Assembly: GCA_000442015.1 (NCBI GenBank)
Contig: KE561122.1
Span: 1 to 42,538 of the forward strand
Length of the DNA stretch: 42,538 nucleotides
Direction of reading: 5' to 3'
Source: Rozella allomycis CSF55
Lineage: Eukaryota; Rozellomycota
Each line of letters opens with the position of its first letter. Within the stretch, counting starts at the first letter, position 1. The notes under the pieces were generated by a model. It did no database searches. It had not been told where the DNA came from and was given only the letters and a program-made list of their open reading frames with translations. The translations under genes and the position numbers were made by a program. Shown one piece after another: positions 3,995-42,484 of the stretch.

Positions 3995-4799
3995 TTATTT
4001 AATAAAATTGTCTTTATAATTAATCAATGAGGCTGCATCAATATCCAAAAGCCAAGTACTATTTGAATTAATTTCACTAACGATTCCCGCTGGATATTTC
4101 ATTTTCTGGTCTTTTTTAAAAATGTCTTCAATAACCTTATTCTTTGAAGCACCGGTGACCAGAAAAACAACATTCTCACACATTTTTAATGCATTCAAAG
4201 TCAGGGTTATTCTTTTTGGTGGAGGCTTTGGTGAATTTTCTACATAGTCAAGAAATTCAACGCTTCGAAGAATATCATGGTCAGGAAACAGTGAGCAAGT
4301 ATGTCCGTCAGGCCCCATACCTTAATGATAAAAATGTACTTGCAATACCTAACAATGCACAATCAATTATAAGACTTGAACCGGTACATGGCAAGCCTAA
4401 CTCCTTCCATGTTTCCCTCATTTGCCCATAATAGTTTTCGCAAACCTTTTTCGTGTCGTTTAAAAATTCACTATTTATTTTAATGAATCTAAAGGGCTTT
4501 ATATTTGTGGATCCAAAAAGTTCCTGAAAGTAAAATGACTCTTAATGTTTTACGTTATCAATTAATTTTGCATTCGAGTCATCACTATCATTTTCTACAC
4601 ATCTTTCATCTGCCAATAAAATGATCCACTTGGAAAAGTTTTCCTTGTTAACGTTTTTCAACAACAAGGGCAAAGACCCACCAGATATTGCTATAGTAAA
4701 GTAATTTGATTTTTCTAAAGCCTTAGTTTCTAGCTCTTTTAAAATTATTGCTACTCTCTCACAAATCCCTTCTTTCCCTGAAAACACCTCCAATTTCAT
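3995..4799 (-). CDS. PGL: 6-phosphogluconolactonase
   Basis: Exons 4799-4554, 4523-4349 and 4320-3995 (introns 30 and 28 nt, the latter ending AAG) give 248 aa, typical of the family. Hallmarks: ISGGSLP near residue 40, ADERCV, and GMGPDGHTCSLFPDH near residue 140, then SPKPPPKRITLTL. It hydrolyses 6-phosphoglucono-delta-lactone in the oxidative pentose phosphate pathway, in the cytosol. The start at 4799 (MKLEVFSGKEG) gives the standard N-terminus; reading farther upstream in frame passes only a GTG before a stop. It is convergent with the small ORFs on its left and diverges from the CYSTM gene on its right. Confidence 0.9.
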
Positions 4800-5496: not shown

Positions 5497-8400
5497 TTAT
5501 TCGATAAACTTTAGTAGATTTGAGGCTTCTTTGATGTTTTCAGTAGACATTTTGATGAGTGCTCTGGGTAATAAAGTAAATGGCCTTATGAATTTATCTC
5601 TTTCAATATCATTTTCATGGAGAGAAGTGACAATTGTTCTAATTGCACACTCATATAAACCTATATGATTGCCTTGAAAAAATAACGAAAGGCTCTTTGT
5701 TTCATTAGGCTTGAGATCTATGGCTAAATCACTTAAGCTATAGTTTTTTTCCTGCTGCTCTAAATTCATAGAAACATGAACGGCTATGGCGGAAGTATTT
5801 TGTATTGCTATATTTTTCTTCTTATTTATTAATTGGCCTTCCATTTCCTGAATCAATGTTCCGACTATTAGATGATGAGCAATTTCTTCGTCTTCAACTA
5901 GACCCAAGCCTGGCGTCAAAGATTTAATGAATTGTATAGGCGAGCCATTGAAACTAACTTGGAACAAAATTTTTATCGAATATCCCTCAAAATCGCATAT
6001 TATGGAAGACAAATACAATCCAGGCGTCAGTGAATGAACCTTGACTTCAATGGGAAGAATTCCATAACTTTCAATACATTTTTCATGTTTAATGGAAACA
6101 TTCAAAAATTGGTCGCATAAAACTTTAGTCTTTACAGCTGAAGATAGAATAGAAAGATTCTCTACATTGACAACAATAGTTTGTGATTCTCCTATCTTTA
6201 GAGGGCTAAAGAAAAGGACATGGCTTGCATCGTGATCAGTAAAATCTGTTCTTGGATAAATAATCCTATCAATAGGATCTTCACTTGACACATTACAAGA
6301 AAACCCAAGGCTGTGGCCTTTCATTAAAACAAAAGTTTTTTCCTTCTTGCCTCCATATTCACATTCTATATTATAATCGACATCAACATCTGATTTTAGC
6401 GGTTTTGTTAAAACTTCAATTTCTTTGCATTCTCCCGGCTGCAACCAACCATTAAATTGAGGTATCTGAACATTGGTTATTTTTTCATTATTTTTAGATC
6501 TCAAGTGATAAAAGGTTTTATACATCCTGCAATTTCTAAGCACTATCTTGTCCTTTGAAGTATAATTAACAAAGCAATTTGATATAGTGGATTCACTTTT
6601 GGTAAATTCAATTAATTCATTCAAGCATTCGGCTCTAATTTCGGTAATGTAAATTTTGTTAGCTAGTCTAGGGAGCAGAGAACAGGGCTCCTCGTTTAGA
6701 ACATTGAATCTCAAAAAACATCTTAACCTACATTCCATTATGGGAATCACTGTGACTGAAATATTTATTTCTTCGCCTGGCTGTAATGATATCGCATCTT
6801 TTTCGTAAAGAACAAATGCGTTGGGAAGCAAAACTCTAGGAAAACAATCTATTGTAGCCAGATCATAATGTCTAAAGTCAAATGGATCCAAAATATTCAA
6901 AGACTCGTCAACTTGCATTTGATGACTTATTCTAGCCTTTATAAGGATGTTTCCGCAGTTCCTTATTTGCACCTGTTCGATATGTTTGGAAAAAGGCTTT
7001 ATTAGACCCAAATCTAACAAATGATTGCTAAATTCTAAAGAAATATGATTCGAGACTTTTTTCTGATACAAAAAACACTCCCCAGAATCCTTTATTAGGA
7101 ACTGAGTATTTAATGGTCCGCATGTATGTTGATATGTGATTTCCCTGTTTTTGTTTGAAACACAAGATCCTCTAACAATTAGTTCCAAATGAGTATCTTC
7201 GTTGACTGGCACTTTTGAAAGCTGAGACAAGAAAGATTTAATAAAAAGTGTGCAAGAGAATTCATGAAATCGAGGAGATGTTGGGCTGTACTTTGCAACA
7301 AACGTAATCTTACCGTTCGGTGGGAATTCGACATTGGATGGAGATACAGAAAATACAGAATGACATTGTTGAGCTATAGTGGACACATCTTTTTCTTTGA
7401 CTTCCCAATATGTTTGAATAGCAAAAGAATTTTGATTGATAACCGAAAATTCAAATTGTCGAGTTTCATTAGCGAAAACATCTTTCATATCTTTGACCAA
7501 TATTGAACTGGAATTCTCAAAGCAAAATCTTTTATACTCGGCCATTCCTTCCAGAGAAAAATGAAATATTTTAAGAGTATCACTTATTACAGAAAATGAA
7601 TGTTTAATAGCCCCTTCTTGCTCTGGTTTGATGTCCACGCAGATGACGATTTCTTTGTCCTTTTCAAGTTCAAATTTTTCAGGGTGCACAATAATAGTTT
7701 CATGAAATAGGGCATTCAGTTTGGAACCAGCAGCAAAATTTAATGTACTGGAATCAAATGAATCCAAATTGATATGATCTGGGAAAATTTGGAATTTGGA
7801 ATTGCCTTGGATATTTTTTAACTTCATTTGTACGCGCTTTTTGTGATTAACTAAGCTGCCACCAATACTAATTAGTCTGTTGGATAAACTTTTGCCTTCA
7901 TAAATCAATTCTGGATCCATGTTTTGTGTAATGATGGGAACAATGTATTCTTTGCCTGAACTTAGCTGACACTTTATATCATATTCGTTTTTAAAACAAT
8001 TTACGGGCTTGAAATATATATTCAGGTCTAAAGATAACCCGGGCGCAAGATTAATATCATTATTCAGATTAGCGTTTTCACATACAATTTTAACTACATT
8101 GGCTTGAGGAAATTTAATTCTAAACTTTAAGATTTCTTTGGAACCATTTTTAAGATTTAATTTCCTAACGTATGTTTCATTTGGAACATAATCTGTAAAA
8201 TTGACGGATTCGGGCTTCACAATCAAAATTTCAGCCTTTTCCTTAATTTTTGTTTGAGCTTCATGTATGCTTATTATTTGAGTGTCAGAATATTCTTCAT
8301 ACTTTTTCAAATTGTTGACAGGTTTGACATGTGAATACTTTTTCTTGGGAATGATTTGTGTAGAATCTTCAATTGGCGCTAACGGATTTATGTAAAGAAC

Positions 8401-8877
8401 CTTCTTTGCGTCATCAATTGTGAAATAATCATTTAGATCAATATTTTCCGATTTTTTAGTTGTTAATAAAGAATTCAAAGCATCAATGATGTCTTGTTGA
8501 CCATTTTTAGTTATAATATCGTCTAAATTATTTTGAATGGTGTTAAAGATGGATTCGCATTCTTGATAGCATTCGTTATATTCCTGAAGAATTTTTGCCC
8601 TTTTATTTTTTCCTTGTTCCACAATGCCCCTAATTTTATCCATACTTTCCTTTATCATTTTTTCATCGTCTTCCAAGTTGAACTTTAAGGAATCATTACT
8701 AATAGATTTTGCTTTTTTCAAATCATTTTCTGTCTTATTTTTATTCAATGAATGTTTTCTCTTTTCCGTTGAAACTGATGTTTTTGGTCGATTATCTTCA
8801 ATCTTTGGCAAAGAGTTTTGTGCATTTTCAAATATGAGATTAAATTCTTTTATGGCATCTGTGAATATTTTCTCCAT
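5497..8877 (-). CDS. ASH/MSP-domain axonemal protein (hydin/CFAP type)
   Basis: A single 1,126-codon exon, unusual in this intron-rich neighbourhood. Residues ~1-180 are charged and partly coiled-coil, with a Lys-rich patch near 50. From ~210 onward come repeated beta-rich segments of the ASH (ASPM, SPD-2, Hydin)/MSP type: VNFTDYVPNETYVRKLNLKNG, LAPGLSLDLNIYFKPV, VEFPPNGKITFVAKYSP, LQPGEEINISVTVIP, LQPGECKEIEV, LKIGESQTIVVNVEN. Alternating hydrophobic strands with a Pro-Gly or Asn-Gly turn before V/I-rich strands are the signature. Proteins of this build (hydin, CFAP74, CFAP221, DLEC1) sit on central-pair or other axonemal structures. N-terminal coil plus later ASH repeats recalls CFAP74, but I cannot assign the orthologue. 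Its start is 41 bp from the divergent ATAT1 start, so two ciliary genes share one promoter region. Confidence 0.7.
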   Translation of the reverse strand: MEKIFTDAIKEFNLIFENAQNSLPKIEDNRPKTSVSTEKRKHSLNKNKTENDLKKAKSISNDSLKFNLEDDEKMIKESMDKIRGIVEQGKNKRAKILQEYNECYQECESIFNTIQNNLDDIITKNGQQDIIDALNSLLTTKKSENIDLNDYFTIDDAKKVLYINPLAPIEDSTQIIPKKKYSHVKPVNNLKKYEEYSDTQIISIHEAQTKIKEKAEILIVKPESVNFTDYVPNETYVRKLNLKNGSKEILKFRIKFPQANVVKIVCENANLNNDINLAPGLSLDLNIYFKPVNCFKNEYDIKCQLSSGKEYIVPIITQNMDPELIYEGKSLSNRLISIGGSLVNHKKRVQMKLKNIQGNSKFQIFPDHINLDSFDSSTLNFAAGSKLNALFHETIIVHPEKFELEKDKEIVICVDIKPEQEGAIKHSFSVISDTLKIFHFSLEGMAEYKRFCFENSSSILVKDMKDVFANETRQFEFSVINQNSFAIQTYWEVKEKDVSTIAQQCHSVFSVSPSNVEFPPNGKITFVAKYSPTSPRFHEFSCTLFIKSFLSQLSKVPVNEDTHLELIVRGSCVSNKNREITYQHTCGPLNTQFLIKDSGECFLYQKKVSNHISLEFSNHLLDLGLIKPFSKHIEQVQIRNCGNILIKARISHQMQVDESLNILDPFDFRHYDLATIDCFPRVLLPNAFVLYEKDAISLQPGEEINISVTVIPIMECRLRCFLRFNVLNEEPCSLLPRLANKIYITEIRAECLNELIEFTKSESTISNCFVNYTSKDKIVLRNCRMYKTFYHLRSKNNEKITNVQIPQFNGWLQPGECKEIEVLTKPLKSDVDVDYNIECEYGGKKEKTFVLMKGHSLGFSCNVSSEDPIDRIIYPRTDFTDHDASHVLFFSPLKIGESQTIVVNVENLSILSSAVKTKVLCDQFLNVSIKHEKCIESYGILPIEVKVHSLTPGLYLSSIICDFEGYSIKILFQVSFNGSPIQFIKSLTPGLGLVEDEEIAHHLIVGTLIQEMEGQLINKKKNIAIQNTSAIAVHVSMNLEQQEKNYSLSDLAIDLKPNETKSLSLFFQGNHIGLYECAIRTIVTSLHENDIERDKFIRPFTLLPRALIKMSTENIKEASNLLKFIE

Positions 8878-26767: not shown

Positions 26768-28006
26768 TTATTTTTTAACAATTTGAACAACATCTTCATC
26801 GTGCAGACAATGATCCAATCCTACTTTCTGTGGATTATGTTTAACTGATGATCCCCAAACCAATGCACTAATTTTATTATTAAACCATTTTGTACTATTT
26901 AAACTCCTTGATCAATGAGCGATGAATTGCATCACAAAAATCTTTAACCGTTCCAGCAGAAGACTTTAAAACAACTGGCGCGCTATAATCTGGAACTTGA
27001 CCTTTGGGCTTTGTATAACTATTTTTATTCAAAGCTATTGATTACATTCTTAAAAGACTCAAATATTGCCATGCCTTTTCTAACAATTCATCAAAGTTCC
27101 ATTCATGGTTGGCAGAAATTGGAACACAATGAGGAATCTTGTATAGAATATCTAATTCCTGAATAGAAATTGAATCAATCTTGTTTAAAACATAAACGCA
27201 AGGAATGTAGACTCTATTTCCTTCAATAACATCAATAAGATCGTCTTCCGTAGCATCGCAACGAATTTGAACATCAGCACTAGAAATACGATATTCAGAT
27301 AGAATCGCTTTCACAGTGTCTAAATCCAAGTGGGTCAAAGGAACAGTGCTTGTCATATTAATACCTCCCTTGTCCTTTCTACGAAAAACGATATTTGGAG
27401 GCTCTTTATTCAATCTTATTCCGAATCCTTCCAATTCTTTTTCAATAATTCTTTTATGTTGTAGCGATTTCAAAACATCAAGAACAATAAAAATTAATGA
27501 ACATGTTCTCGCAACGGCAATAACTTGTTTACCACGACCTTTACCGTCTTTGGCTCCTTCAATAATCCCTGGCAAATCAAGAATCTTATTCATAATTTGA
27601 AAGTCTCCATACTTGAATTTGAGCACCACGATATTGAATAACACCTGGTACGGTTGTTAAAGTGGTAAATTCATACGCAGCAACTTCTGAAAATGTGCCG
27701 GTAAGTTTGCTCATCAAAGTACTTTTTCCAACTAGATCTCACGACTATTTAACTAGGTACCAGATGGAAATCCTATAAATCCTACTCTAGCGATACCAGT
27801 TTTCGCAACATCAAAACCTTCACCAGTGGCACCGCCTCCTCCTTTTGGTGTTAATAATTCTCTTCGAAGTTTGGCCAGTTTTGCTTTAAGTTGACCAAGA
27901 TGGTAAGAAGTGGCCTTATTTTTTTGAGTACGAGCCATCTACATTTTTAAAATCGTGATTTAAATACTTCATTTTCAATTTCTTTGATTTTTTCAATTAC
28001 CGACAT
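26768..28006 (-). CDS. DRG1: Developmentally regulated GTP-binding protein DRG1
   Basis: Exons 28006-27968, 27938-27761, 27731-27613, 27584-27046, 27018-26896 and 26867-26768; introns 29, 29, 28, 27 and 28 nt; 365 aa against 367 in human. [20 protein letters not shown] and PKGGGG precede the Obg-type GTPase: GFPSVGKST (G1), [17 protein letters not shown] (G3), NKID (G4), with the S5D2L-type insert and a TGS domain ([27 protein letters not shown]). DRG1 binds ribosomes with DFRP/RWDD1-type partners and helps resolve stalled translation. Near-complete identity blocks make this certain. Confidence 0.97.
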
Positions 28007-28137: not shown

Positions 28138-31100
28138 TTATTGACAAATGAAATGGGTTCTTCTTTTGATCCAATGCTTCACAGGAACATCAGAATTAAC
28201 AAGAAAAAAGATACCAACGAGATCCTTTTTAAAAGCAAGACTTGAAAGAAATTCATATCCAAATCCAAAATCGAATTGATGATATTCTTGATACCCAATA
28301 CCAATTGAAGGTTGATCGAGAGAAGACCAGAAAAGGGGACATTTAAATTTCGTGTGAATTCTTTTTGATAGATTCTGATTCTGATTTGTTAATTTCACTT
28401 TTTGGGTGGAAAACTTTTGTGGATTTACAACTGGTTGAATCCAAATCTATTTAATTAATAAAAGTTGGTTACGCAAGGAATTTTGCAATTGAATTCATTT
28501 GATTTGGCGTCTCTCATGTTGCCTCTGCCGAAATCCCAAACAGCGTTTCTTAATGATAAACCACAAATGTAGTATCCTTTGGTGGCTATTGTATTTTGTT
28601 TGGTGGATAAAATATTCGCTTCGAATTCCAGTAACTCCATAGGCTCTTTAGATTGCGTTGAATGATCTTTTAAGAATGCTATTTAAACATAGTGTAGTAA
28701 ATTACCTGCCAAGAGAGGCTCAGGGTGAATCATTTTAGAAAAATCGTGAACAATTGGCCATTCGAAGCCCTGGTGTTTTTGATTGTACCATTCATTAACG
28801 TATTCTAATCTACTGACGAAATTAGCAATCCAAGATGAAAAAGAAAACCAAATATTGCTAGCGAATGGAAAATCACTTTTTAGGAAATTTGGGAAATTGT
28901 CAGAATTAACAGAGTCAACAAATTGATTGATTTTATTTGAAAAGGGAGTGAAAGATCTGATTGATTGTAAAGTTTGTTCTATAATTTCTATTAGTAATTT
29001 TAAGCAAGAGTGATATTTAGTGTAATTGGAATAAATGATAGAATCCGTGCTAGAAGAGATTGTAAATTCAACATTCTTTTGAATGATGCAAGCGCTCAAC
29101 TTTGCAAGCCATTCTTGTAAAATTGGAACGACTTTTTGAACTTTTGATTCAAATAGAATATTAAAGTTTGTTTTTTGAACTGGCAGGATAATTGATAGTA
29201 AATGTAAATATTTAGAAGAGTTTAGAGCATCTAGAGCAGATGAAGCGACTTCTTGTAATCCAATTAAATTTGGAGAGAGTTTTTCAGGTAATTTTTCTAG
29301 AGCGATTTTGATTGTTGAATAATCTTGAGCAGAAATTAGAGAATGATAAAATTCAATTAGAGGATTGAAAGAGATTAAATCGTCTGAAGAATCTTTTTCA
29401 TCCCATTCAGAGGAAATGATTTCAGAGATGAACATTTGAAGAATTTTGAAATCTGATTGTTCAACAATTTTGGAAAAGACAACTTGAAAGATTGGAGAGA
29501 GAGAATCTCTTACTAATTTTATTGCTTGACCTTTTTGATATTTAGATTGTTGGCTGTTGATTGAATCATTTGATGAATTTAAAGCTTCTTCTTCAAAATC
29601 AATTTCTTTTGAATAAAGTTGAATTATTTCTCTTATTCTTTGAATCATTAAAATTAAATCATTCAAAGTAAAGTTATAATCTCTACTAAATCCATAAAAC
29701 TTGAATTGATTTCTTTCAATTAACACAACTAGAAGCAGAAATGATTGAACTAGAATCTAAATAAACAAAAACTAGTTACTTTACCTTTTTCATTACAAAT
29801 TTATTTTGTGAAATTGCATTAGTTAAATGAGAATGAATAAATTCATATAAAAATGAAACTTTTTGTTTAAAACTCAAATGAGAAATTTCCAAAATAGTGA
29901 AATTGCATTTTTCAAATATTTCAACAGAAAAATTAACACTTGCTTTATAATCACAAGACATTAATAACTTAAAATTTGATTTTACTTTTAATGAATCAAC
30001 AATTGCTAAAACTTTATTAATCAAGTCAATGGATTCATGAATATCTTGAAGATACAACCATTTCCCTTTCTCAATGCAATCCATTAATGTTTCATTTAAA
30101 GATTTAAATTCAGTAAATTTAGAAATTAAAACAGATTGAACAATATTCCCCTTTTCATTCTTTTCAGCAATTATTTTCAACGTTTGATAAACATCAATGT
30201 CATTTCTAGTAATAAATAGAAATTGATTTGTTGATGAAATATTTTCATAAATTTTATCAACAAGAGAAAATGATGAATTTTTATTAATGTCACAATTAAT
30301 TCCCTTCAATTCATCCCCTAGTGGAAATTCATTGATAATACTGAAAATTGCCTTTTTGAAACATTCAGGTTTAATTATTCTCAAAACAATCAATTTTTCC
30401 AATTTATTTAAATTTTGATTCGACTTGCCTGGAAAGATACAATTCTCTGAATCCTTGTTACATTGTAATTCTTCCCAACTAGTTTCTTCAATTGGAGTTG
30501 TAGCCTTGTTGGCGTATTTGCTAAACTCTGCAACCAATTTACTAAATTTCTGTAGTTGGCCAAGATGACAAATAGATTCCCATGATTTCTTATCAAGCCA
30601 TGATGCAGCTGGATTCGGTGGTATTTCATTACAAATTACTTCTTTGCATTTTCCATATAACAGAAATTCCCAGTATTCAGATGGAATATTTTCATTTGAA
30701 GATTTAATAGAAATATAAAACATCAAAAGATTAAAAATGGAATATTCAAGCTTAGAATTCAAATCTTTTAATATAAATAAACTAAACTGTTTAAACCAAT
30801 TAGCATCAACTTCATTTGTGAAATTTCTGAAATATTCCAGAAAATTATTTAGATTGAATTTATAGCAAGAATGAATATTTTGTAATTTATTTAATAGTAA
30901 ATAGAATTCAGCAGCAGATTGAAAAATATTTCTCTTCTTTTCAGATCCAGAGAGTTTAAAGAATTCTTTCTTCATGCTTGTTAATTGAATGACTTTTTTG
31001 CGATAATTTTCTTCATAGTGAGCTAAATTGTAAGAAGTTTCAGTGAATTGAGATTTGTCAACATCGCATAGACCAACTTGTCTTAATCTTTCTTCGCGCT

Positions 31101-34100
31101 TTAAATTTTGTTCAAAGTTTATCATTTCAACATACAGATTGGTGTATTCAGTTTTAGCTTGCAAAGAAGATTTGTTTAAATGTTCATTGAATAGTAAATG
31201 AGAAAGATTCTTTTTATTGAAATCTAAAAATAGAATTGAAATTCTTTCGTCTTTGATAAAATCATTTGGAATGGAATTTGAATAAAAGATAGAAATTGGT
31301 CTGAATCCAACTCTTTTTCTTAATAATTCATTGTTGTAGAAATTGTTTATTAAATTTGAATTTATTAATAGCAATTCAGATGGTTTCAAAAGAACATGTA
31401 AATCTTTTAAATCATTTGAAGTTAAATTGTTTAATGGAGAATCTAGACCAAACATTGATAGAAAATGATACAAGCCACAATGGGGGTCTAGAACAAGAAT
31501 TGGTTTAACAGATTTAATGTAAATCAAGATATTTTCTAATAAATCCAAATCAAATTCAACAGTTAAAGTTTTCTGAAATAGATTAACTTTGTAATCTTTC
31601 AAGAGTAGAGAAAGAATAAAATCTAGTGGATCAATGATTAAATTCAATTCATTAAAGATTAAATTTAATTTTTCTCTTATTTGAATTCTAGAGAATGAAT
31701 TGAATTGACCAAATAGAACAATAATTGATTCAACGTATAAAGAATTTGAGAGACAACGAGACAAGAGTTGATTTTTATCTTCAAGTGAATCTTTCCATCT
31801 TTTTATTAAAGAAATTAATTTTTCTGAATTGCTTAAAGTTTCTTGATATATTTTTTCAGTTTCATTTATATTTTCTTTAATTAAATTTTTTCTTTTTAAT
31901 AGATCATCTAAATCTTTTGTTAGATTAGATTTCTTAATTTCTAGAGAATTTATTCTATTTTTTTCATCTTGAATTGAATTGTTTATTTTTTGAATATTTT
32001 TTTCTTGAATTAATAAATCATCATGAATCTTTGAATTGTCAAACAAAGTACATTGAAAATTATAAATAGAAATAATCCAATCTCTCAAACAATTAAATTC
32101 TTCAATAAATTCAACTTGAACGCTACTTTTAAAAAATTCATATTCAAAAATTGAATTAAATTTATTTTTATCATTCTCATTCAAAGTAAAATTTAAAATT
32201 CTTTCATAGAGATTAATTTTATTATTTTCATTAAAGAAAAAACTTAAAAATGAGATTAATGATCTAACATTGGAATTTAATGAATTATTTAAATCTATCC
32301 ATTTTTCAAAACTAATAACTTTCTTTACATTTTTAAATTCATTCATAACAATTATAGATTGAGAATTTATCTTTTTATTGTAATTATCTTTATCAATTTG
32401 ATAATTTTCTAATAATTTATTTAACGAAATTTCCAACTTTTGTTTTCTGATTTCAACTTCTTTTAAATTATCTCTAACAAGATCAATTTGTTTTAAAATT
32501 TCATTTCCTCCAATTGTTATTTCATTAAATTCATTTTGTAGATTTGATAATTGTAATTTTAAATTTGATAAATGTTTTTCACAATCTGTTGCTTTAATTA
32601 AAGATTTCTCAATCATTTCAATTTCTTTTTCAATTGGAATGGAAAATTCTCTATAAATCTCCAATGTTTGAACTTGGAAATTTACTAAATAATCTTCAGA
32701 AATTCCAAATTGAAAAGCTAAATTTTGTTTTAATTAGATTTCAATTACCAACTTGTTTCAACTTTTCATAAAATATGGAAACTAGATATATTTCTTCATC
32801 ATTCACTTGATACTTAGGTTGAATATTTCTCTCCAAATAAATAACCCTGGAATTAATCAGAAAATTCTCTAATGTTTTTGGCTCCAAACAATTCACAAAA
32901 TGAACATTATTTCTAAATTGTTCATTCAACAATTTCATTCCTTTGATTTCAATTCAATTCAATCATTTTACCTTGTTCAATTGGAATTTGTTTATTAGTT
33001 GAAAATGTCTTTATTGCATTTTCTGTTAAATCAGATTCCAATATTTCTGTTATTTCACTTCCAGATAAAAATTTATCAATCATTTCATTCTCTTCTTCAA
33101 CATACACACAAAATTTATTATTAAATGATTTATAAACTATCGAATCAAAACATGAAAACAACACATCAAACGTTAAACCAGAAATATCACTCTTTTGATG
33201 TAAACTATTTTTATCACGCTTATTATTTTGTTCACGATTTTCATTGTTATTGACATCTGCAAGTAATTCTTCTCCACTCATCCCATTCAATTCTTCACCT
33301 ATATTCACTTCCCCATTCTTCACTTCTCCATTCTTCACTTCCCCATTCTTCACTTCACTTTTCAACTCTTTCTCAACTATATCTCTCACATCATTCTCAA
33401 CTCTTTTCAATTCAATTTGACAGATATCACACGCTTTTCCAACACACTCAAAAAAATAATCACAATCCAATTCAACCACCGTAACATTACAAGGGTCAGT
33501 CACCAGCGAATTACAAATATTAAAAACATCCACAGCATTTTCAATACTCAAATCAGGATGATAATTAACAATCTCAGTCACAGAATAGTATTCCCTCTTG
33601 ATCAATATACTATGCGAATATTGATACAAGTAAATAGTTGACTGCCACTCTTGCAACACACTCGTTGGAATATTCAAGTTTTTGCAAAATATATCAATTA
33701 TTTTGTTCTTTTCATTCGTTTGGAATAAAATTCTGTCGAGTAAATCTATAAAGAAAGATTTAATGAAAATATCGTCCAGATTGGAACATAGCTTCAGGGT
33801 TGTATTCAAACTACATAAAACATCATTGAAATTAAATGAATAATACAGATTGTTGTTGAAACAATAAGCATTGGTAGAAACTAGTGAGAATATTTGTAAT
33901 ACACATTGAATCATAAAGTCTATCAAGTCATGGTCATTTGGAAAACTTTTATACAATTTCAATTTTAATCTTTTAGAAAGTGTTGAATTTACATCATCGT
34001 GCATGTTAATTATTATTGAATGCGTTGAATTCAAAAAGTCTAATTCTTCACATGTTGCATTTGTGAAATTTACAAAAATTAAATCTGATTCAACGCTCTT

Positions 34101-37100
34101 TATTCTATTGTCATCAATGATAGTTTTATTATTAATAAACGGAATGATATTATCATCAATCGTTCCATGTATATTCAAAATGGAATTCTTTTCAAAGAAT
34201 ACAGATTTAGCTCCAATGGATGAAGCCTTTTGAATAACAATATCAGACAGTGAATCTAAACATGTATAATCATCATCATTTGAATACACCTGTTGCTCTT
34301 TATTATACTTTGCATGTGATACTTTAATTGGTATAGACTTACACTTGAGTGCTTTGATAACCTGTTCAGCCAATACAAAAGATTCAGGACCAATAAGAAC
34401 AATTCGACTACCGCTTCCTTTTAAAATTCTAGACAGATAAATCAACTTTGAAAAGTCATTAAATTCACTTTGAAAATCATCAACTTCATTAAACTGAGAA
34501 TGATCAGTTTCTCTCTTTTCATTAAACAATGCCCAATCATTTATAGTTTCATCATAGAAAATATCAAAAACAGTAGAATCATCTCTTGGAAGACAGGGGA
34601 ACAGATTATTCCAATCAATAACTGAATCAATTCTAATTAAATTTCTTTCATGGTACAATGTTTTGAAACCTTTATCGAATATTCTGTTTCTTGTATAATC
34701 AACCCTTGCACCGAATGACCATATAATGGAAAATAGACAATTAGCGATTATCCATTTTTTCTGTTCGTTAATTGTTAATCTTTCATAGTTTTTGCCAATG
34801 TTGTTGCAGAGAGATGCGAAAATTGATTTAAATTGAATGAGAACAGAGTTTTGACAGAAATTTGATAAGCCAAGTTTAGAAGAGGAAATCAAGTCATCCA
34901 CTTGACTCAAGAGAATGTTTATTAGTTTATTGCTAAAGTTTGAATTGTCTAGAAGAATTTGATTGGAGTTTATTAGAAAATTTATTATTGAAGATTTGAA
35001 GTTTGATTGATGAATGAATAGCCAAGGAGACTCAAAGTGTTTGGTTAGAGAATCTACATCAGATAAAGAAGTAATGGATGGTAACATTGAATCATTAATA
35101 CAGTCATCAATCAAACTGAAAACCAGTTCATTATCTTGAATTTCAAATACTAATTTAATTCTCTTCTTTGATATAAATGATTTAATCTTTTTGAAAGAAT
35201 TTGCATTAAATTTTCCAGAAATATGAAAGATACAATCAGAGTCTCCCAAATCAATTAAAAGAGAATTTATTATTTCAATAATATTGTGAACCCATGGAAT
35301 TTCTGTAATTGTATTTAATGTTTGTTTTATCAATGTTGATTTAAAAGAAAATGGTTCACCAAAAACAAAAGAAATTGAATTATTTGTTACTAGTCTTTTT
35401 ATTTCACTTGAGTAATCCATTTTAGTTTCATTGAATAAAGTTTCATTGATAGAATTTGAATACAATTCATTAAAAATATTTAAAGATTTCTCAATATTTG
35501 AAATTGATACTTTTGATTGTAAGAAATCTTTTAGAGAAGAAAAAATTAAAGAATTTTCATCAAGATTTTGATTTTTATTTGTGATTATTTTACTTGTTAA
35601 TTCAAAAAGAAAAAATCTATTTATAGAAACAGAATTTTTCAAAATAAAATGAAAAGAAATTAATTTTCTAGAAATTGAAAAACTATTTTTAAATCCATTA
35701 ATTTTCAAGATCATTTCAATTAGATTAAAATAATCTAGATCTGAAAAATTTAAAATTCTTAGAAAATTGTTAAATGAAGGATCTATAGATTGATCTATTT
35801 CTTCTTGATGTAAAATTATTGCGTGATCTAGAGAATATTTAAATGTTTCATTTTGGAATTTTATAGAATCTGATCTATTTAAATTTGCCATTGATAAAAT
35901 CTTTTTCAACGCCAACAATGAATCTGAATTTTTATTCAAAACATCATAATTAGAGTTATGCTTGAGAGAATTGTAATTTAAATCATTAGAGTTTATATTA
36001 GAAAATATACCTTTGATAACTAACCATTCCTTTAACATTAATGAACCTTGTTATACCGATAACAAATGAATTTACCTAACATTAATGTTTATTGCTTTGA
36101 TTACCTTTGATGTAATGCATGAAATTGTCACTCTTGTGGTTTAAATCTAAATAGATAATAGATCTTCCAGTAACAAGTGATAATTCATTCAACAAAATTT
36201 CTGTTAAATAATTTGTAAAGAATTACCATTTCCTTTGAATACAAACAATGAATTTTCATGAATAGATTCAAATAGATCAATAGATGATTTTTTAAAAGAA
36301 AATAGATTTGGAACAATTTTAATCATCTGATTTCCATATTTAATTTGATTAATTCCAACTTTTACATAAATTTCATTTTGATCTGTTGAATACACTTTAA
36401 TCATTGTTAACCATTCTTGTTCGATATACCCTTTATTCAACAAAATGTGAATAAATGTTTCAACTAGATCCAAATTATATTCAATCAATGAAATCAACAA
36501 TTGATATTTGATACTTAAAGTTGAAATGGTTGAAGTAGCTGAAATGGAAGATTCATTCAACTCTACACTTTTACTACCTTCACCTCTACTATTAATTCTT
36601 TCAATTTCTTCTTGAAGGGATTCTCTTTCTTTTTGTAATCTTCTCTTGAATTCTTTAAATGAATTGATATTCTTATTCAACATTAATTGTTCATACTCTC
36701 TTGTTATTAAGAAATTAAAAGACAAATAAATCATTTGATAAGAAAATTTAATAATCCAACTTCCAAACCCTTTCTCTTTACATTCAACAATCACTCCAAC
36801 AGATTCTCTCTTTATATTATCTTTAATACATTCATCTAATCTATTAATTAAATCAACTAGATTATATTCAAACACTATTGGTAATTTAAATTCAAAATAT
36901 TCAAAACTAATTATTCCTGTTACTATAAATAAATCACTCGTCAAGCCACTTTGACCTTTCAAGGGTAACAAATAAGATTTATCTTCAAATTTATTTGATT
37001 TCAGAAATTCTAAATATTCTTCTTTTATTTTACAAACAACAATTCTACAATCAAAAGGAAAACATCCATTCAAATCAACCAAATAGAAAGTTTCATTCAA

Positions 37101-40100
37101 TCTAACAAATCTATCTTTTGCTCCTTGAAATGAAATTATTCTTCCACACAAATTCATTATTTCTTCATCTTCTTGAAATATCAATCTTGGACATTTCTTT
37201 TTCATCTCTTGAATAAACCCATGCATTTTATTATTCAAACTTTTAGCTTTATTCAACGTTTCTTCAATATTAGAAAATATATCTTGATTTTGAATAAACA
37301 CCAAACAATTCCCAACCCTTGTTAAAATATCAAAATATGAATTATAAAGTTTTTCAATCAAATTAAATTCATTCCTTATTTTATCTCTTTCTCTCTCACT
37401 CTCCATTTGATAATAAAATACACTAAATAGATTAGGAAATATATTGGAAATTTCAATCAAATTCATCAAGATATTCTCAGATCTTATCAATTTAATATTC
37501 AACTGACTCAAACTCATTTCTCTACAACTAAATATCAATGAATTCAAAAGCAAAAGAATTTCACTAGAATTTTCAATACAAATTATCGATTTGTTCTTAT
37601 TAGAACTTTCTTGCTTGTTCAGATTATTAATGGATCCTTTAAGATTATTTACACTCTTCTTGAGTTTTCTACTTTCATCCAACTTTGATTCCCCTCTCAT
37701 TTCATTTACTTGTTTAAACTCTATTGTCATATTTCTTAACTTTGCTTTAACAATGTCAGCCTCTTCTTGTATTCTAGCTTCCATTGTTGCCATATCACTC
37801 AGTTCTACAATCATAGATCTCTGCAAGTCTAAATTCAATTCTATCAACTCTGCCAACGTCAATGTCTTTATTTTATTCACAGTCAAGTTCAACTGGCTCT
37901 TTAACAAGTTCCAATGCTTGTCTCTCAACTTTTCATTTCTCAATCCTCTAATCAAAAACAAATATCTAGCAAAGTTTTCAACTTTAATTCCAACAATTTT
38001 TAACGTCTTGTCCGGTCTTTTCACTTGTAATTCTCTAGCTTCAACTTCATCCAACGTCTTGCGAAAATTTCTAATCTTGCTTTCTATTTCTTCTATCGAA
38101 AGATAATAAAATAGCGATTGCAACCATTTTGGTATACTTTGCATCACATCACTCACTAAATTCCAAACAATCTCCAAAAATAGAAAAGTATTCAGGAAAT
38201 CTTCCAATTCATCAAAATTGGTTTTATCCATTTCTAAATATTCCTCCCTCTCATTAACAATCTTAATGCTCTCATATACTTTATCATATCGCTCTCGTAT
38301 TTTATTAACAATCATCGCCATAAATTCATACTTGCCAACTTCATCACAGGGAATCACATACTCCAAAATCTCTCGTTTAAAATCATTTAAACTTGATTTA
38401 ATAAACTCTTTATCAATCTCCAACTTTTTCATCAAATCTCTGCGAAAACTCTCCACATTGTCTTTTGCTACAGAATACAACATGCCAACCTTTTGTGGCC
38501 ACTTGAATACTTTCCAATACAATTCATTCAATTCCTTGTTCATTTCAAGAGAATTATTTTCAAAAATATCATAAATCATTTTAATCTCGTTGAATTCTTC
38601 TTTTAATACATCCACACTCTCATTGCTATATTTATCCACATTGGTTTTTAACATTTTCCATTCTTTACTCTCTCTAGGCAAAATATCCATCCCTTTATAC
38701 ACATTTGAATAATACTCATCCATTTTCATACAAATACCATGCATTCTGCTTGACATCTTTTTGATTATAAAATCCAACACTGCTTGGCACTTTTTGATCA
38801 ACATCTTTTTAATTTTAAAACAATCAACTTGCAAGGGAGCCATACTAACAGTATCACTGCTCAAGTATAAAATTTTCGTTCTTGCCTTTGAGTACCTCTG
38901 GGCCATTGCATCCAATTCTGTCAACTTTAAATTGTCCTCCTTTATCTCATATTCCAAAATAAACTCAAATTCCTTGTATTCACTCAACATTTGCTTGACT
39001 TTCGGATAACAACTTTTTAACACTTTCAATAGTTCATCGGAACCTTTGCTCATGAATNATCGGAACCTTTGCTCATGAAATCCTCGATTTCTTCTTCTTT
39101 AAAAGGCTTCAGGTAATTTACGCTTAACCCTATGTGATTAAACATTACATTTTCTATATTCATCACACATTCTCTGCAACTCTCCAATGGTAAATGAAAT
39201 AACTTTATCAAAGAATGCTCCAAGGCTGCAAAAGTGGGCTTTAAAACTATAGAAGAGAAGGATTTTTCGCCTTTATTCATTCCGTCTGTTATCCCCTTTT
39301 CTGGCTCACGACTTTGTATCACACCAATTGTAACTGTAAATAGAACAGGAACACTTTTCCCCTCTGATAATGAACTAATAAATGTATGCACATTATCTAA
39401 TGATAGATCAGAGTCACTCAAACTAACATTCCCCTCTTTAATCTCGGTTCTAATCATCATTAACGACAAAAAATAATTGGCCGAACGCATTATCAATGTT
39501 CTTACTTGAGTCTCAAACACAAAATTTAATAGCCTCAAATAATTCTTCAAACGACTATTCTCAAACGCCCTAACGCTTTTTGGATTCAAATCAAACGCTG
39601 TATTCAACTTCGCATAGATGATTTCCAATATACTTCTTGGCCATTTCAGACTCAACTTGCTTTGTATGCTCTGTGCATGCATCGTCAATTTTTCTTCCAA
39701 ATAATAAAATGACACTGGAAAATTGTTAATCTTGAAATAGAAAGTTTCCTGTAAAAATATTTCCTCAAAACATTTTATTATTGAGACTGTCGCCTTTTGT
39801 ACATCTGAATTAGATAAAAACATGTGAGAGGAAATTTCATGTGACACTTTGTTGAACTGAGATACCAAGTATTCTTTAAATTTTGGCTCTTTGACTTGCA
39901 AGTTGTCAGCGGCTATCACAGCGAATTTGCTTATATTTTCAACTTTGCTTTTCTTTTTCTCCTGGCGTCGATCATTCTCACTCTTCTTCATGCTAAAAAT
40001 ATTATCAATCTCACATTCATAAAAACATTCTCTCAATATTTCTTTCCCTCTTTCTGTCAATCTTTTCACACCAATCCTCTCTTTAATCCCCTTTTTCATA

Positions 40101-41319
40101 TTCTCAGAAATGGTGCAATATCCTTGATCAGGTTGTTTATCTATTTCTTGAAGTAGTTCCATTTCAGCAACGAATTGGTCGCGCAATTTGCTAGCGTTTT
40201 CCAATCTTTTATAGAACAAATCCCTGTTATCGTGCTCAAAAAATAAATTTAATCTTTTAGCACTCTTGATTACACTTGAATTAGTCCACTGTATTTTGAA
40301 AAGCTGGCTGTTCTTGTCATATCCTAGCACCTTACATGGGTACCATTCCCAACTTCCACTTCCATTTCTATGGTCAAAATATCTATTACTTTAATGGTAA
40401 ATAATTACCTAGAAAATGCTAATATACCATCCTCACCATTTTCAAGGGCATCTGACAGGACTTTGACTGGATCAATAAGTTCTTGTTCTGGATCATCGAA
40501 TAAATCTATAGAAACATCTTTTATCTTTATTTCAGACTCACGAAAGATGGATGACTTAATATTCAGCTTTGCTAAAAATTCTTTCTCTGTCTTGGCCTTG
40601 TACTCCGGAATATCCACAACTCCCGCCAACTGTATGTCATAATTCATACTATCTGAACAATCCTTTTCATGTATCATTTTTTTAACGTCCATAGAAAGGG
40701 GAGGAGCTGGGGGAACAATCGTATTTGCATTTCCCATTTTTGAAGTGATGTAATCATCAATAGATTCAAAATCGGTTATCATTCGTAAACTACTCTCTAT
40801 CTTGTTTGTGATTAATATTATACCTTCTTTATTTGACACGAATGCTGTTGATGGGCGTTGCTTCATTAGTAATGATTCCGCCTTTCTTAAGACATGGCTT
40901 TTGGGTACACGACTAGAATAAGGTCGGCCCTTAAATTTGAGTAAAGGCTTATTATTATTGGATTTTTCATCTCGATTATCGGATAATTTATCAGAGCATA
41001 TATCATGAACAAATCCAAGAGCATATGTACTTGATGATTGAAACGTGCTTCTCCAACCTTCCTTATTTTTTGTCCTGGCTTCTATTGCGGTTGATGGTCT
41101 CTTTTTCTTTCCCAGATACTCTTTTTCCACCATATTCAATGCGTTTTCCCAAGCGCTGGAATCAAATGTGACAACTCCCCGTGTAAATGAAGTTGCGGGC
41201 CTAGATTTCTGAGAGGTTTTATCTTGGGCCTTATTTTTTTCTTCCGACTTTGTCATTCTTGACATTAAATGTTTGTTTACATCCTCCAGAAGTGGAACAT
41301 AAATTGCCTGTCCTGGCAA
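28138..41319 (-). CDS. Giant dynein heavy chain with degenerate AAA+ ATP sites (DNHD1-like?)
   Basis: Exons: ~41319-40409, 40382-36227, 36200-36105, 36046-32972, 32940-32749, 32717-29785, 29756-28706, 28678-28473, 28446-28138; 4,283 codons from ATG 41265 after dropping the assembly duplicate at 39036-39079. Tail: RYFDHRNGSGSWEWYPCK, VLGYD. Linker: LAELIELNLDLQ, CPRLIF. AAA1 Walker A place reads FVFKGNGEILLNEL, with no K-S/T; the Walker B place is WLVIKGIFSNIN, with no D-E. AAA2 reads FVFGEPFSFKST (only one Gly lost); AAA3 VLIGPESFVLAEQ (no Lys). The AAA4 region is low complexity. Stalk and microtubule-binding tip (CLRDWIISIYNF) and C-terminus (GYYICGLSLRNAVWDFG, VKHWIKRRTHFICQ) are kept. This looks like a non-hydrolysing axonemal dynein-like protein, as in animal DNHD1. 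The true 5' end is unclear: the ETYLPGQAIYVPL stretch before ATG 41265 seems to be coding. Confidence 0.75.
33301..33360. repeat. 15-bp tandem repeat in the dynein AAA4 region
   Basis: About three and a half near-perfect copies of a 15-bp unit (plus strand TTCACTTCCCCATTC) encode repeated EVKNG in the product. They lie in an acidic, Asn/Lys-rich insertion about where the AAA4 nucleotide site should be. Confidence 0.85.
36047..36104 (-). other. Apparent back-to-back introns (29 + 29 nt) in the dynein gene
   Basis: Between NFMHYIK and SLMLKEWLV the frame is restored by removing 58 nt. The stretch splits at its exact middle into GT...TAG (36104-36076) and GT...AAG (36075-36047), each 29 nt, with no exon between. 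Confidence 0.5.
39036..39079. repeat. Assembly joint: 21-bp duplicate around a single N
   Basis: Bases 39036-39056 and 39059-39079 are the same 21 bp, separated by T and N (39058). Removing one copy and TN (23 nt) restores a continuous dynein frame (EEIEDFMSKGSDELLKVLK) and makes the CDS an exact multiple of three. This is an overlapping-contig artefact. Confidence 0.92.
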
Positions 41320-41459
41320 ATATGTTTCTTAATAGCCATTAAGTCAGACGAAAGTATTTTTAAATAAAATTTATAGAAATATTTATTTATGCAAGAGCTA
41401 AAATGGTTAATTATTTGCGTATACATTAAGTTAGGTATCTTCCAAAGATGAACACTAAG

Positions 41460-42358
41460 TTATTTTTCTTTAATTAAATATACCATTATTTCAAGAAAGC
41501 AATTATGAGAATTAAAGGGTACCATAAATTGAATTGACAACGTCCCTTGTTCACTGAAAGTAATAGCAATCTTATTGGCTAAAGTGGCAATTTTATTGCA
41601 GTATGAAGCGAGATTAGTAAAATAGTACCAACTTAGCTACATAAAACTTTGCTTACCTTTGCTCAAACCTTGCCGGTACTATCACTCCATCAATATGTGG
41701 ACACGATCGACGAATTTCAATCTTTTGAAGCAACGATATACTCTTACTTTAGTTGAGCCAGATGGTCCTATACCTTCTAGAGTAAGCGAGATATCTCCTG
41801 GTGAGAGGATAAATGTGAGTATGTCAGTGTTGACAGGAATTTCACTGATCAATTTTTTAAACCAATCCGCCTATGTAGCTTTTATAAGTCTATGTACTTT
41901 ACAAACAATTCGGCAATAATTATCAGGACGTTCTATGTCAAAATCAATATCATTTTCGTCAAAAGTGCATAGGTCTGCTGAACAGACACAATGATCGTAC
42001 TCGCATCTATTTACAATCAATAAATTCTTTACGATAAGAATACATCCGATCCGGGTCCTCTCCAGCCCATCCTGAAAGCCCCTAGAGATAGAACTCCCAT
42101 AGATTCGTAAAATAATGTCAGATTGCAACAAAATTTATTTTCGCATTCTTCTCCGTTGTAAAAGTATTCATCGAACAAGTTATCTTCCAGAAAGACATTC
42201 AATACAAACGAATTAGATAATTTGGTGGACAGTTGAAGTCCTCTTTCATTGCAACGGAACGTAAGTACATCATGTTTTGTTTTAGTTTGAATGGATTTTA
42301 AGATTGATATGAGAGGTTTAGATTTGTTCAAAGAAGCAAGAAATACCAAATCCTCCAT
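41460..42358 (-). CDS. RAD1: Checkpoint clamp subunit RAD1 (9-1-1 complex)
   Basis: Exons 42358-42033, 42006-41898, 41870-41748, 41721-41657 and 41631-41460 with introns of 26, 27, 26 and 25 nt; 264 aa, close to the human 282. The start LVFLASLNKSKPLISILKSI, CNLTLFYESMGVLS, and GPGSDVFLSCEYD follow the two PCNA-like halves of RAD1. The later half has TFILSPGDISLTLEGIG and CNKIATLANKIAITFSEQG, LSIQFMVPF. RAD1 pairs with RAD9 and HUS1 in the ring clamp loaded at DNA damage to activate ATR. It lies on the same strand as, and about 140-195 bp upstream of, the dynein start, and its own start is about 142 bp downstream of the tRNA 3' end. Confidence 0.88.
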
Positions 42359-42484
42359 TTTAGCGAAATTTCAAAAATTGGGATGGGTAGGTGTGTTAAA
42401 CTATTTTAAATATAAAAAAATATTAATATCACTTTAAAAAATATCATCGTAAAATTAAGAGGTTGTTGGGCTTAAAGTGTTCTT

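Follow-up and report, generated by a model that had tools for sequence, protein, structure and literature searches.

The stretch of DNA analysed here, contig KE561122.1 of Rozella allomycis CSF55, is referred to as the window over its full length of 42,538 nucleotides. On its minus strand a gene for a dynein heavy chain was identified, the sequence of which suggests that a flagellar dynein has been kept at full length with its ATP sites worn away, so that a motor has turned into a passive structural arm. The gene and its parts are as follows:

28138..41328, minus strand: whole gene model in 10 pieces, 4,304 sense codons plus stop, the stop ending at 28138
40383-40408, 36201-36226, 36047-36104 and 32941-32971, minus strand: introns 1-4 of eight
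32718-32748, 29757-29784, 28679-28705 and 28447-28472, minus strand: introns 5-8
40058..40382, minus strand: tail domain (W-x-W..C..Y....F.I.W...KRLNL.F..D...F..R)
39036..39058, no strand: probable contig-join artefact, a 22-bp duplication flanking a single N at 39058, omitted from the model
37143..38204, minus strand: DHC_N2 (linker region), Pfam 83-86 bits
36166..36248, minus strand: position of the AAA1 Walker A motif, interrupted by an intron and reading LFVFKGNEILLNELSLVTG, without GK
35994..36020, minus strand: AAA1 Walker B position, VIKGIFSNI in place of CFDEFNRI
35334..35360, minus strand: AAA2 P-loop remnant GEPFSFKST, the downstream Walker B and SPATVSR being lost
34362..34391, minus strand: AAA3 P-loop position GPESFVLAEQ, without Lys
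33282..33358, minus strand: short tandem repeat (VKNGE) in the degenerate AAA4
31744..32673, minus strand: predicted stalk, with a tip of about 72 residues between a helix at about 32332-32670 and a second long one at about 31747-32115
29905..30228, minus strand: AAA6 / Dynein_heavy D6 domain, 33.9 bits
28467..29150, minus strand: Dynein_C C-terminal domain, 60 bits across the intron and 28.8 bits in one exon

The splice model joins six long frames and shorter exons, the introns being 26-58 nt long and bounded by GT..AG. Many of the introns predicted in the heavy-chain genes of this genome (loci L001-L055) are unusually short, with 26-31 nt. A first-pass annotation of the window had described a dynein heavy chain of 4,283 codons at 28138..41319. 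Identity and length were borne out on the minus strand, counted from the first in-frame ATG, which is codon 22 (41265); a start at 41319 was not, as an ATG is present neither there nor at the opening of the frame. Because the frame opens without ATG, the 5' exon is provisional. A gene finder was also run that relies on codon usage without protein alignments and was trained in part on this coding sequence. It placed the gene at 41328-28158, with seven of the eight introns identical to the splice model; at 40408 it used the same donor with a different acceptor, and the N was crossed by two spurious introns.

In 4,304 codons of the same composition, about 388 stops are expected by chance and none was observed (log10 P about -176), and the other two frames of the gene contain 408 and 572. 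No sign of a pseudogene, in the form of stops, frameshifts or broken splice sites, was found in the 4,304 codons, the N of the contig join aside. The unbroken frame described at first pass holds with respect to stops, but requires the removal of the 23-nt overlap duplication with one N (39036-39058); the frame is continuous only once this is omitted, and the flanking frames then meet exactly.

On the protein level, the linker DHC_N2, an AAA lid (43 bits), the D6/AAA6 domain and the C-terminal domain were identified by Pfam in the order of a dynein heavy chain. AAA_lid_11 (30 bits) fell just under the cut-off and AAA_6 (16 bits) below it, and in searches of the genome with the AAA_6 and AAA_7 profiles at E<=0.001 the window gene was not among the matches. 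The stalk is predicted to form a long hairpin: in an AlphaFold2 model of 310 residues, made from the single sequence, helices span residues 2-114 and 187-309, with a predicted local distance difference test score (pLDDT) of at least 90 in 116 of the 310 residues, and the tip region (residues 108-192) is low-confidence helical with pLDDT below 50. A Foldseek search with this model gave 389 matches, six of them with E<=0.001. Ranks 1-7 were heavy-chain-sized chains from dynein or axoneme entries (TMq 0.31-0.72, root-mean-square deviation 5.6-13.5), and isolated dynein stalks were found, mixed with other coiled coils, at ranks 12, 17 and 21. Since long hairpins resemble one another, these matches are support and not proof. 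No Pfam match to the stalk or the microtubule-binding tip was obtained in the window protein, and a stalk profile gave 9 bits for CC2, just -0.8 bits for CC1 and no recognition of the tip. Thus, from the list of parts that had been considered as kept, tail, linker and C-terminal domain were recovered, and the stalk as a predicted hairpin, but the microtubule-binding tip is unrecognisable. Landmarks read by hand gave a stalk of about 318 residues, compared to 319-320 in 36 of 36 intact chains; this was not used as evidence, because an automatic alignment gave 345 and the profile pointed to a shorter segment.

The ATP sites of the motor ring were compared in a motif alignment of the window protein with 13 of 40 database heavy chains. 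At the AAA1 P-loop position the window protein reads LFVFKGNEILLNEL, where GPAGTGK is present in all 13 aligned chains, and at Walker B it has VIKGIFSNI where all 13 have FDEFN; the AAA1 sensor-I loop TMNPGYAGR is lost as well. A motif count showed GK[TS] and FDEFN of AAA1 to be kept in 39 of the 40 database chains. The 40th, P0034, is devoid of the whole AAA1 stretch (312 columns) and elsewhere 78% identical to P0004, and its gap is probably one in the gene model. Walker A and Walker B of AAA1, by which the hydrolysis site of a dynein heavy chain is defined, are therefore both missing from the window protein. The motif GxxxxGK[ST] is absent from the entire window protein, and GxxGxGK did not occur in any of the three frames of the coding strand surrounding the AAA1 introns, where misassembled exons might have hidden an intact AAA1. 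The absence of the Walker A Lys and of Walker B at AAA1, as read at first pass, is thereby confirmed by alignment and motif count.

The absence of the P-loop Lys from AAA3 (GPESFVLAEQ) and the repeat insertion in AAA4 (VKNGE, 33282..33358) had also been read correctly; the P-loop of AAA4 is unrecognisable and its sites are lost. AAA2, which had been regarded as near-intact, retains Lys-Ser only: Phe replaces the Gly before the Lys, Walker B (FDGPVD) is changed to FEIQDN, and SPATVSR is absent. A second alignment, with the genome's own heavy chains, agrees on the AAA2 P-loop and on AAA3. Judged by these motifs, AAA1, AAA3 and AAA4 no longer bind or hydrolyse ATP, and the same very probably applies to AAA2. 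AAA1 is described as the main hydrolysis site, closure of which drives linker and stalk (PMC4879348); because this site is gone, a power stroke is not expected. In Tritrichomonas, the heavy chain P0003 has the same tail domain as the window gene, with worn AAA2 and AAA3 loops and an intact AAA1, which is perhaps an intermediate state.

The tail domain is common to the Chlamydomonas chain 8glv_JG, to 9y6s_6k and 9e5c_6a, and to oomycete and Tritrichomonas heavy chains. When the tail exon was searched against the PDB at E<=10, three matches were obtained, 8glv_JG (48 bits), 9y6s_6k (46) and 9e5c_6a (37), with no mammalian chain among them. The PDB label of 9y6s_6k is 'IDAa heavy chain', IDAa being inner-arm dynein a. 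We take 8glv_JG to be DHC6, which the PDB record does not state, and the IDAa class is here, in our own reading, that of Chlamydomonas DHC6. The tail domain of this IDAa (DHC6-type) class is present in the window gene. A search of the 9.97-Mb genome with the tail of the oomycete chain P0001 identified one place, the window gene (E 2.5e-10), and the window tail itself gave one further place, on C32, at chance level (E 0.08). The window gene is the only locus found in the genome with the conserved tail domain of this single-headed inner-arm dynein.

P0001 had its best PDB match in 8glv_JG (3,652 bits), narrowly above DNAH7 (3,639 bits). For the linker exon of the window gene, 8glv_JG was also first (83 bits), followed by 8glv_Kg (71), DNAH1 (67) and DHC2 (59). 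No dynein was matched by the C-terminal exon in a sequence search of the PDB. The AAA5-AAA6 exon matched best to DNAH12 (50 bits), which is an active motor. In mammalian axonemes, DNAH12 is given as the IDAa heavy chain (PMC11779644). Taken from these searches, the window gene is probably of the IDAa type among the single-headed inner-arm dyneins; this class is probable and not proven, because the linker alone does not favour the IDAa-labelled chains.

A tree was calculated from 27 rows, consisting of the window gene, 18 of the 40 database proteins and 8 other heavy-chain loci of the genome; C30, C39 and the pieces on C82 and C212 were left out. In this tree the window gene, on a branch of 4.69 changes per column, and the metagenomic chain P0002 are sisters (support 93/96). 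P0002, in which all four P-loops were looked for, keeps the motifs at AAA1-AAA4, unlike the window gene, and so does P0001 of the oomycete group, which shares the tail domain. The check for intact relatives in a tree, suggested with the first-pass annotation, was thus answered with a catalytically intact sister chain. Because P0002, P0001 and other database relatives keep AAA1, the motif loss looks specific to the long window branch and, by the branching order, would have occurred after the split from P0002, although that branch is unstarred. In approximately unbiased (AU) tests, the groups for which were picked after the tree was seen, placement with DNAH6 (p 0.0005), DNAH3 (0.0008) and DNAH7 (0.0009) was rejected, as was placement with four chains presumed from BLAST to be two-headed (C140, C27, C132A and C132B; p 0.0015). 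On the same basis, C30 and C39 are presumed to be cytoplasmic.

The composition of the gene varies along its length. The coding GC content is 0.351 in the tail, 0.281 in the linker, 0.268 in AAA1-4, 0.194 in the stalk, 0.252 in AAA5-6 and 0.318 in the C-terminal part, and intact axonemal heavy chains of the genome span 0.325-0.413, which includes the tail value. At third codon positions (GC3) the content falls to 0.105 in the stalk and 0.227 in AAA1-4. No ortholog close enough for a ratio of nonsynonymous to synonymous substitution rates was identified: a database search with residues 300-2600 (2,301 residues) returned 33 of 6,386 candidates as hits, the best with 96 bits, the tail region alone gave no hit among 31 candidates, and a further search gave 12 hits among 223. 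An intact frame together with heavy motif erosion points to retention, with relaxed constraint on the motor, and on this indirect basis the gene is likely under selection. The splice model, the lost motifs and the stop statistics give good support to the first-pass idea that a dead motor is retained with its frame at full length.

Taken together, we favour on balance, with moderate confidence, the reading of the window gene as a lineage-specific, catalytically dead heavy chain of the IDAa type, kept for docking and structure, and not as an old separate class. Compared to the IDAa heavy chain (Chlamydomonas DHC6; PDB 9y6s_6k), it is alike in the tail domain and the order of parts, and its length of 4,283-4,304 residues lies beside 4,246-4,511 in IDAa-type chains. 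It differs in the missing catalytic site, for which the motifs of the database chains are the reference, and in the unrecognisable tip. Several results weigh against this reading. The local identity to relatives is 17-31%; the linker search ranked the IDAa-labelled 9y6s_6k 10th of 18 (50 bits) and 9e5c_6a 12th of 18 (46 bits); and the AAA6 exon gave 16 bits with 8glv_JG and did not have 9y6s_6k among its matches. The grouping with P0002 is not a starred branch, and since the window branch is the longest in the tree, the exact class is probable rather than proven. P0002 itself matched DNAH7 best in the PDB (2,019 bits), before 8glv_JG (1,966), although placement of the window gene with DNAH7 was rejected; the scores of P0002 with 9e5c_6a (1,853) and 9y6s_6k (1,834) lie 224-243 bits higher than that with 9e5c_6b (1,611) and speak for the class. 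The AU tests did not reject placement with DNAH1 (p 0.06) or the oomycete clade (p 0.21). Low GC is also found in C39 (0.26-0.32), which is taken for a cytoplasmic-type chain and has an intact AAA1 loop, and for this reason low GC alone is weak evidence of relaxed constraint. Finally, an AlphaFold2 model of the 1,033-residue AAA exon with 13 heavy-chain fragments of the same genome reached a pLDDT of only 42.8.

In the favoured reading, the protein would be expressed in the flagellum, and its tail would dock, with actin and a DNALI1-type light chain, close to radial spoke 1 in the position of inner arm a. Linker, ring and stalk would then form a rigid or elastic projection without power stroke, which between doublets may act as a spacer, as an elastic cross-bridge or as a scaffold for assembly. 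A light chain with PF10211 (DNALI1-type) was identified on C20 (161 bits). Chlamydomonas dynein a contains DHC6 and p28 (PMC10605206), and Leishmania IDAa is located at the base of radial spoke 1; loss of its heavy chain gave the mildest swimming defect among the single-headed arms and more wavelengths per flagellum (PMC12637542). Because this loss is the mildest, the IDAa slot may tolerate loss of the motor. Dynein arms are regarded as motors, and the window protein should work unlike any active axonemal dynein. If an inner-arm slot is filled by a dead heavy chain, docking, spacing or elastic roles would be selectable on their own, and for beat mechanics an arm that is present without a power stroke would be predicted. 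Among the titles and abstract openings listed in the literature searches, none names an axonemal dynein with a dead motor from outside the animals.

A decaying heavy chain of the IDAa type, heading for a pseudogene with an open frame that reflects recent inertia, would account for the AT drift in the stalk and AAA1-4, the extreme divergence, the repeat expansion in AAA4, and the loss of AAA1 motifs that are kept in 39 of 40 database relatives. This is considered rather unlikely, since, with sites eroded and identity so low, neither stops nor frameshifts are present in 4,304 codons, the contig join aside. All eight introns have usable splice sites, the tail is of normal composition with the class residues kept, and AAA6 and the C-terminal domain are recognisable.

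The first-pass annotation had proposed an old non-motile axonemal dynein outside animals, parallel to DNHD1, and in its strict form this would be a separate class with animal DNHD1 as its ortholog, kept in animals and in the present lineage alike. DNHD1 is a dynein-heavy-chain-like orphan gene with motif loss and a link to sperm flagella, likened to the window gene by description only. It was described as an orphan 'ghost gene', mutations of which affect sperm flagella (PMC8754002, PMC9916431), and whether it is a ghost gene or encodes a functional protein is a matter of dispute (PMC8754002). This fits such a class, as does the tail domain: since it matches no mammalian PDB chain at E<=10, an animal counterpart might be hidden. 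However, sister P0002 and tail relative P0001 keep AAA1, none of the 40 database relatives has an eroded AAA1, and the branching, although unstarred, dates the loss after the split from P0002. No DNHD1-named entry was found among the 33 and 12 database hits or the PDB rows listed for the tail, linker, AAA5-AAA6 and C-terminal exons, in searches that included no comparison to a DNHD1 sequence. With intact motifs in the nearest relatives, a dead old class ranks below a degenerate IDAa-type chain and is regarded as unlikely; the resemblance to DNHD1 is an analogy in kind. If the favoured reading is true, the window gene would be a non-animal parallel to DNHD1. A related and equally doubtful proposal is that both are remnants of one ancestral IDAa class that became a non-motile structural arm early in opisthokonts; if so, a motorless dynein arm would be a normal part of some flagella.

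It is similarly improbable that the window protein is a regulatory dynein, in which AAA2 still binds ATP through its FKST P-loop and responds to nucleotide without motor activity. AAA2 is the sole site with a P-loop Lys and a hydroxyl residue, but the Phe in place of Gly before the Lys and the loss of Walker B and SPATVSR argue against binding, and the AAA1 pocket that drives linker and stalk motion is gone. An artefact of assembly or gene prediction, by which an intact AAA1 is concealed or two genes are fused, is highly improbable. The contig-join duplication and a second heavy chain seemingly split over contigs might speak for it, but the join is in the tail, some 2.8 kb away from AAA1, and the flanking frames meet exactly; apart from it the window has a single N, at position 2597, and the frames around the AAA1 introns are devoid of GxxGxGK.

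In the genome, the DHC_N2 profile identified 11 heavy-chain loci in 17 rows, the window gene included. Searches with linker and tail showed C29 to be DNAH1-like, C97 DNAH6-like and C175 DNAH7/12-like, the last being the genome's DNAH7/12-type chain. A DNAH3-like gene has its tail and linker at L014 (C132:242663-246562) and a matching motor half at L007 (C82:54812-58035), at the very end of a contig; either a split in the assembly or a real break of the gene would account for this. C132:242663 had its best PDB row in 9fqr_Xx, a dynein-length chain labelled otherwise, followed by DNAH7 (320), DNAH12 (312) and DNAH3 (292). It groups with a Chytriomyces chain named DNAH3 (100/100), with which it shares 45% identity; a Globomyces chain reaches 47%, and animal chains at best 31-32%. 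The pattern fits a zoosporic fungus or one of its near relatives. C212 contains a fragment with part of an AAA1, and C10 gave a weak AAA_7 match.

The neighbouring open reading frames of the window are as follows:

42029-42370, minus strand: Rad1-like open reading frame upstream of the dynein gene
27042-27656, minus strand: GTPase with MMR_HSR1 and MMR_HSR1_Xtn downstream of the dynein gene, presumably of the DRG type
5497-8877, minus strand: open reading frame of 1,126 amino acids with CFAP65/HYDIN-like immunoglobulin repeats, a flagellar component

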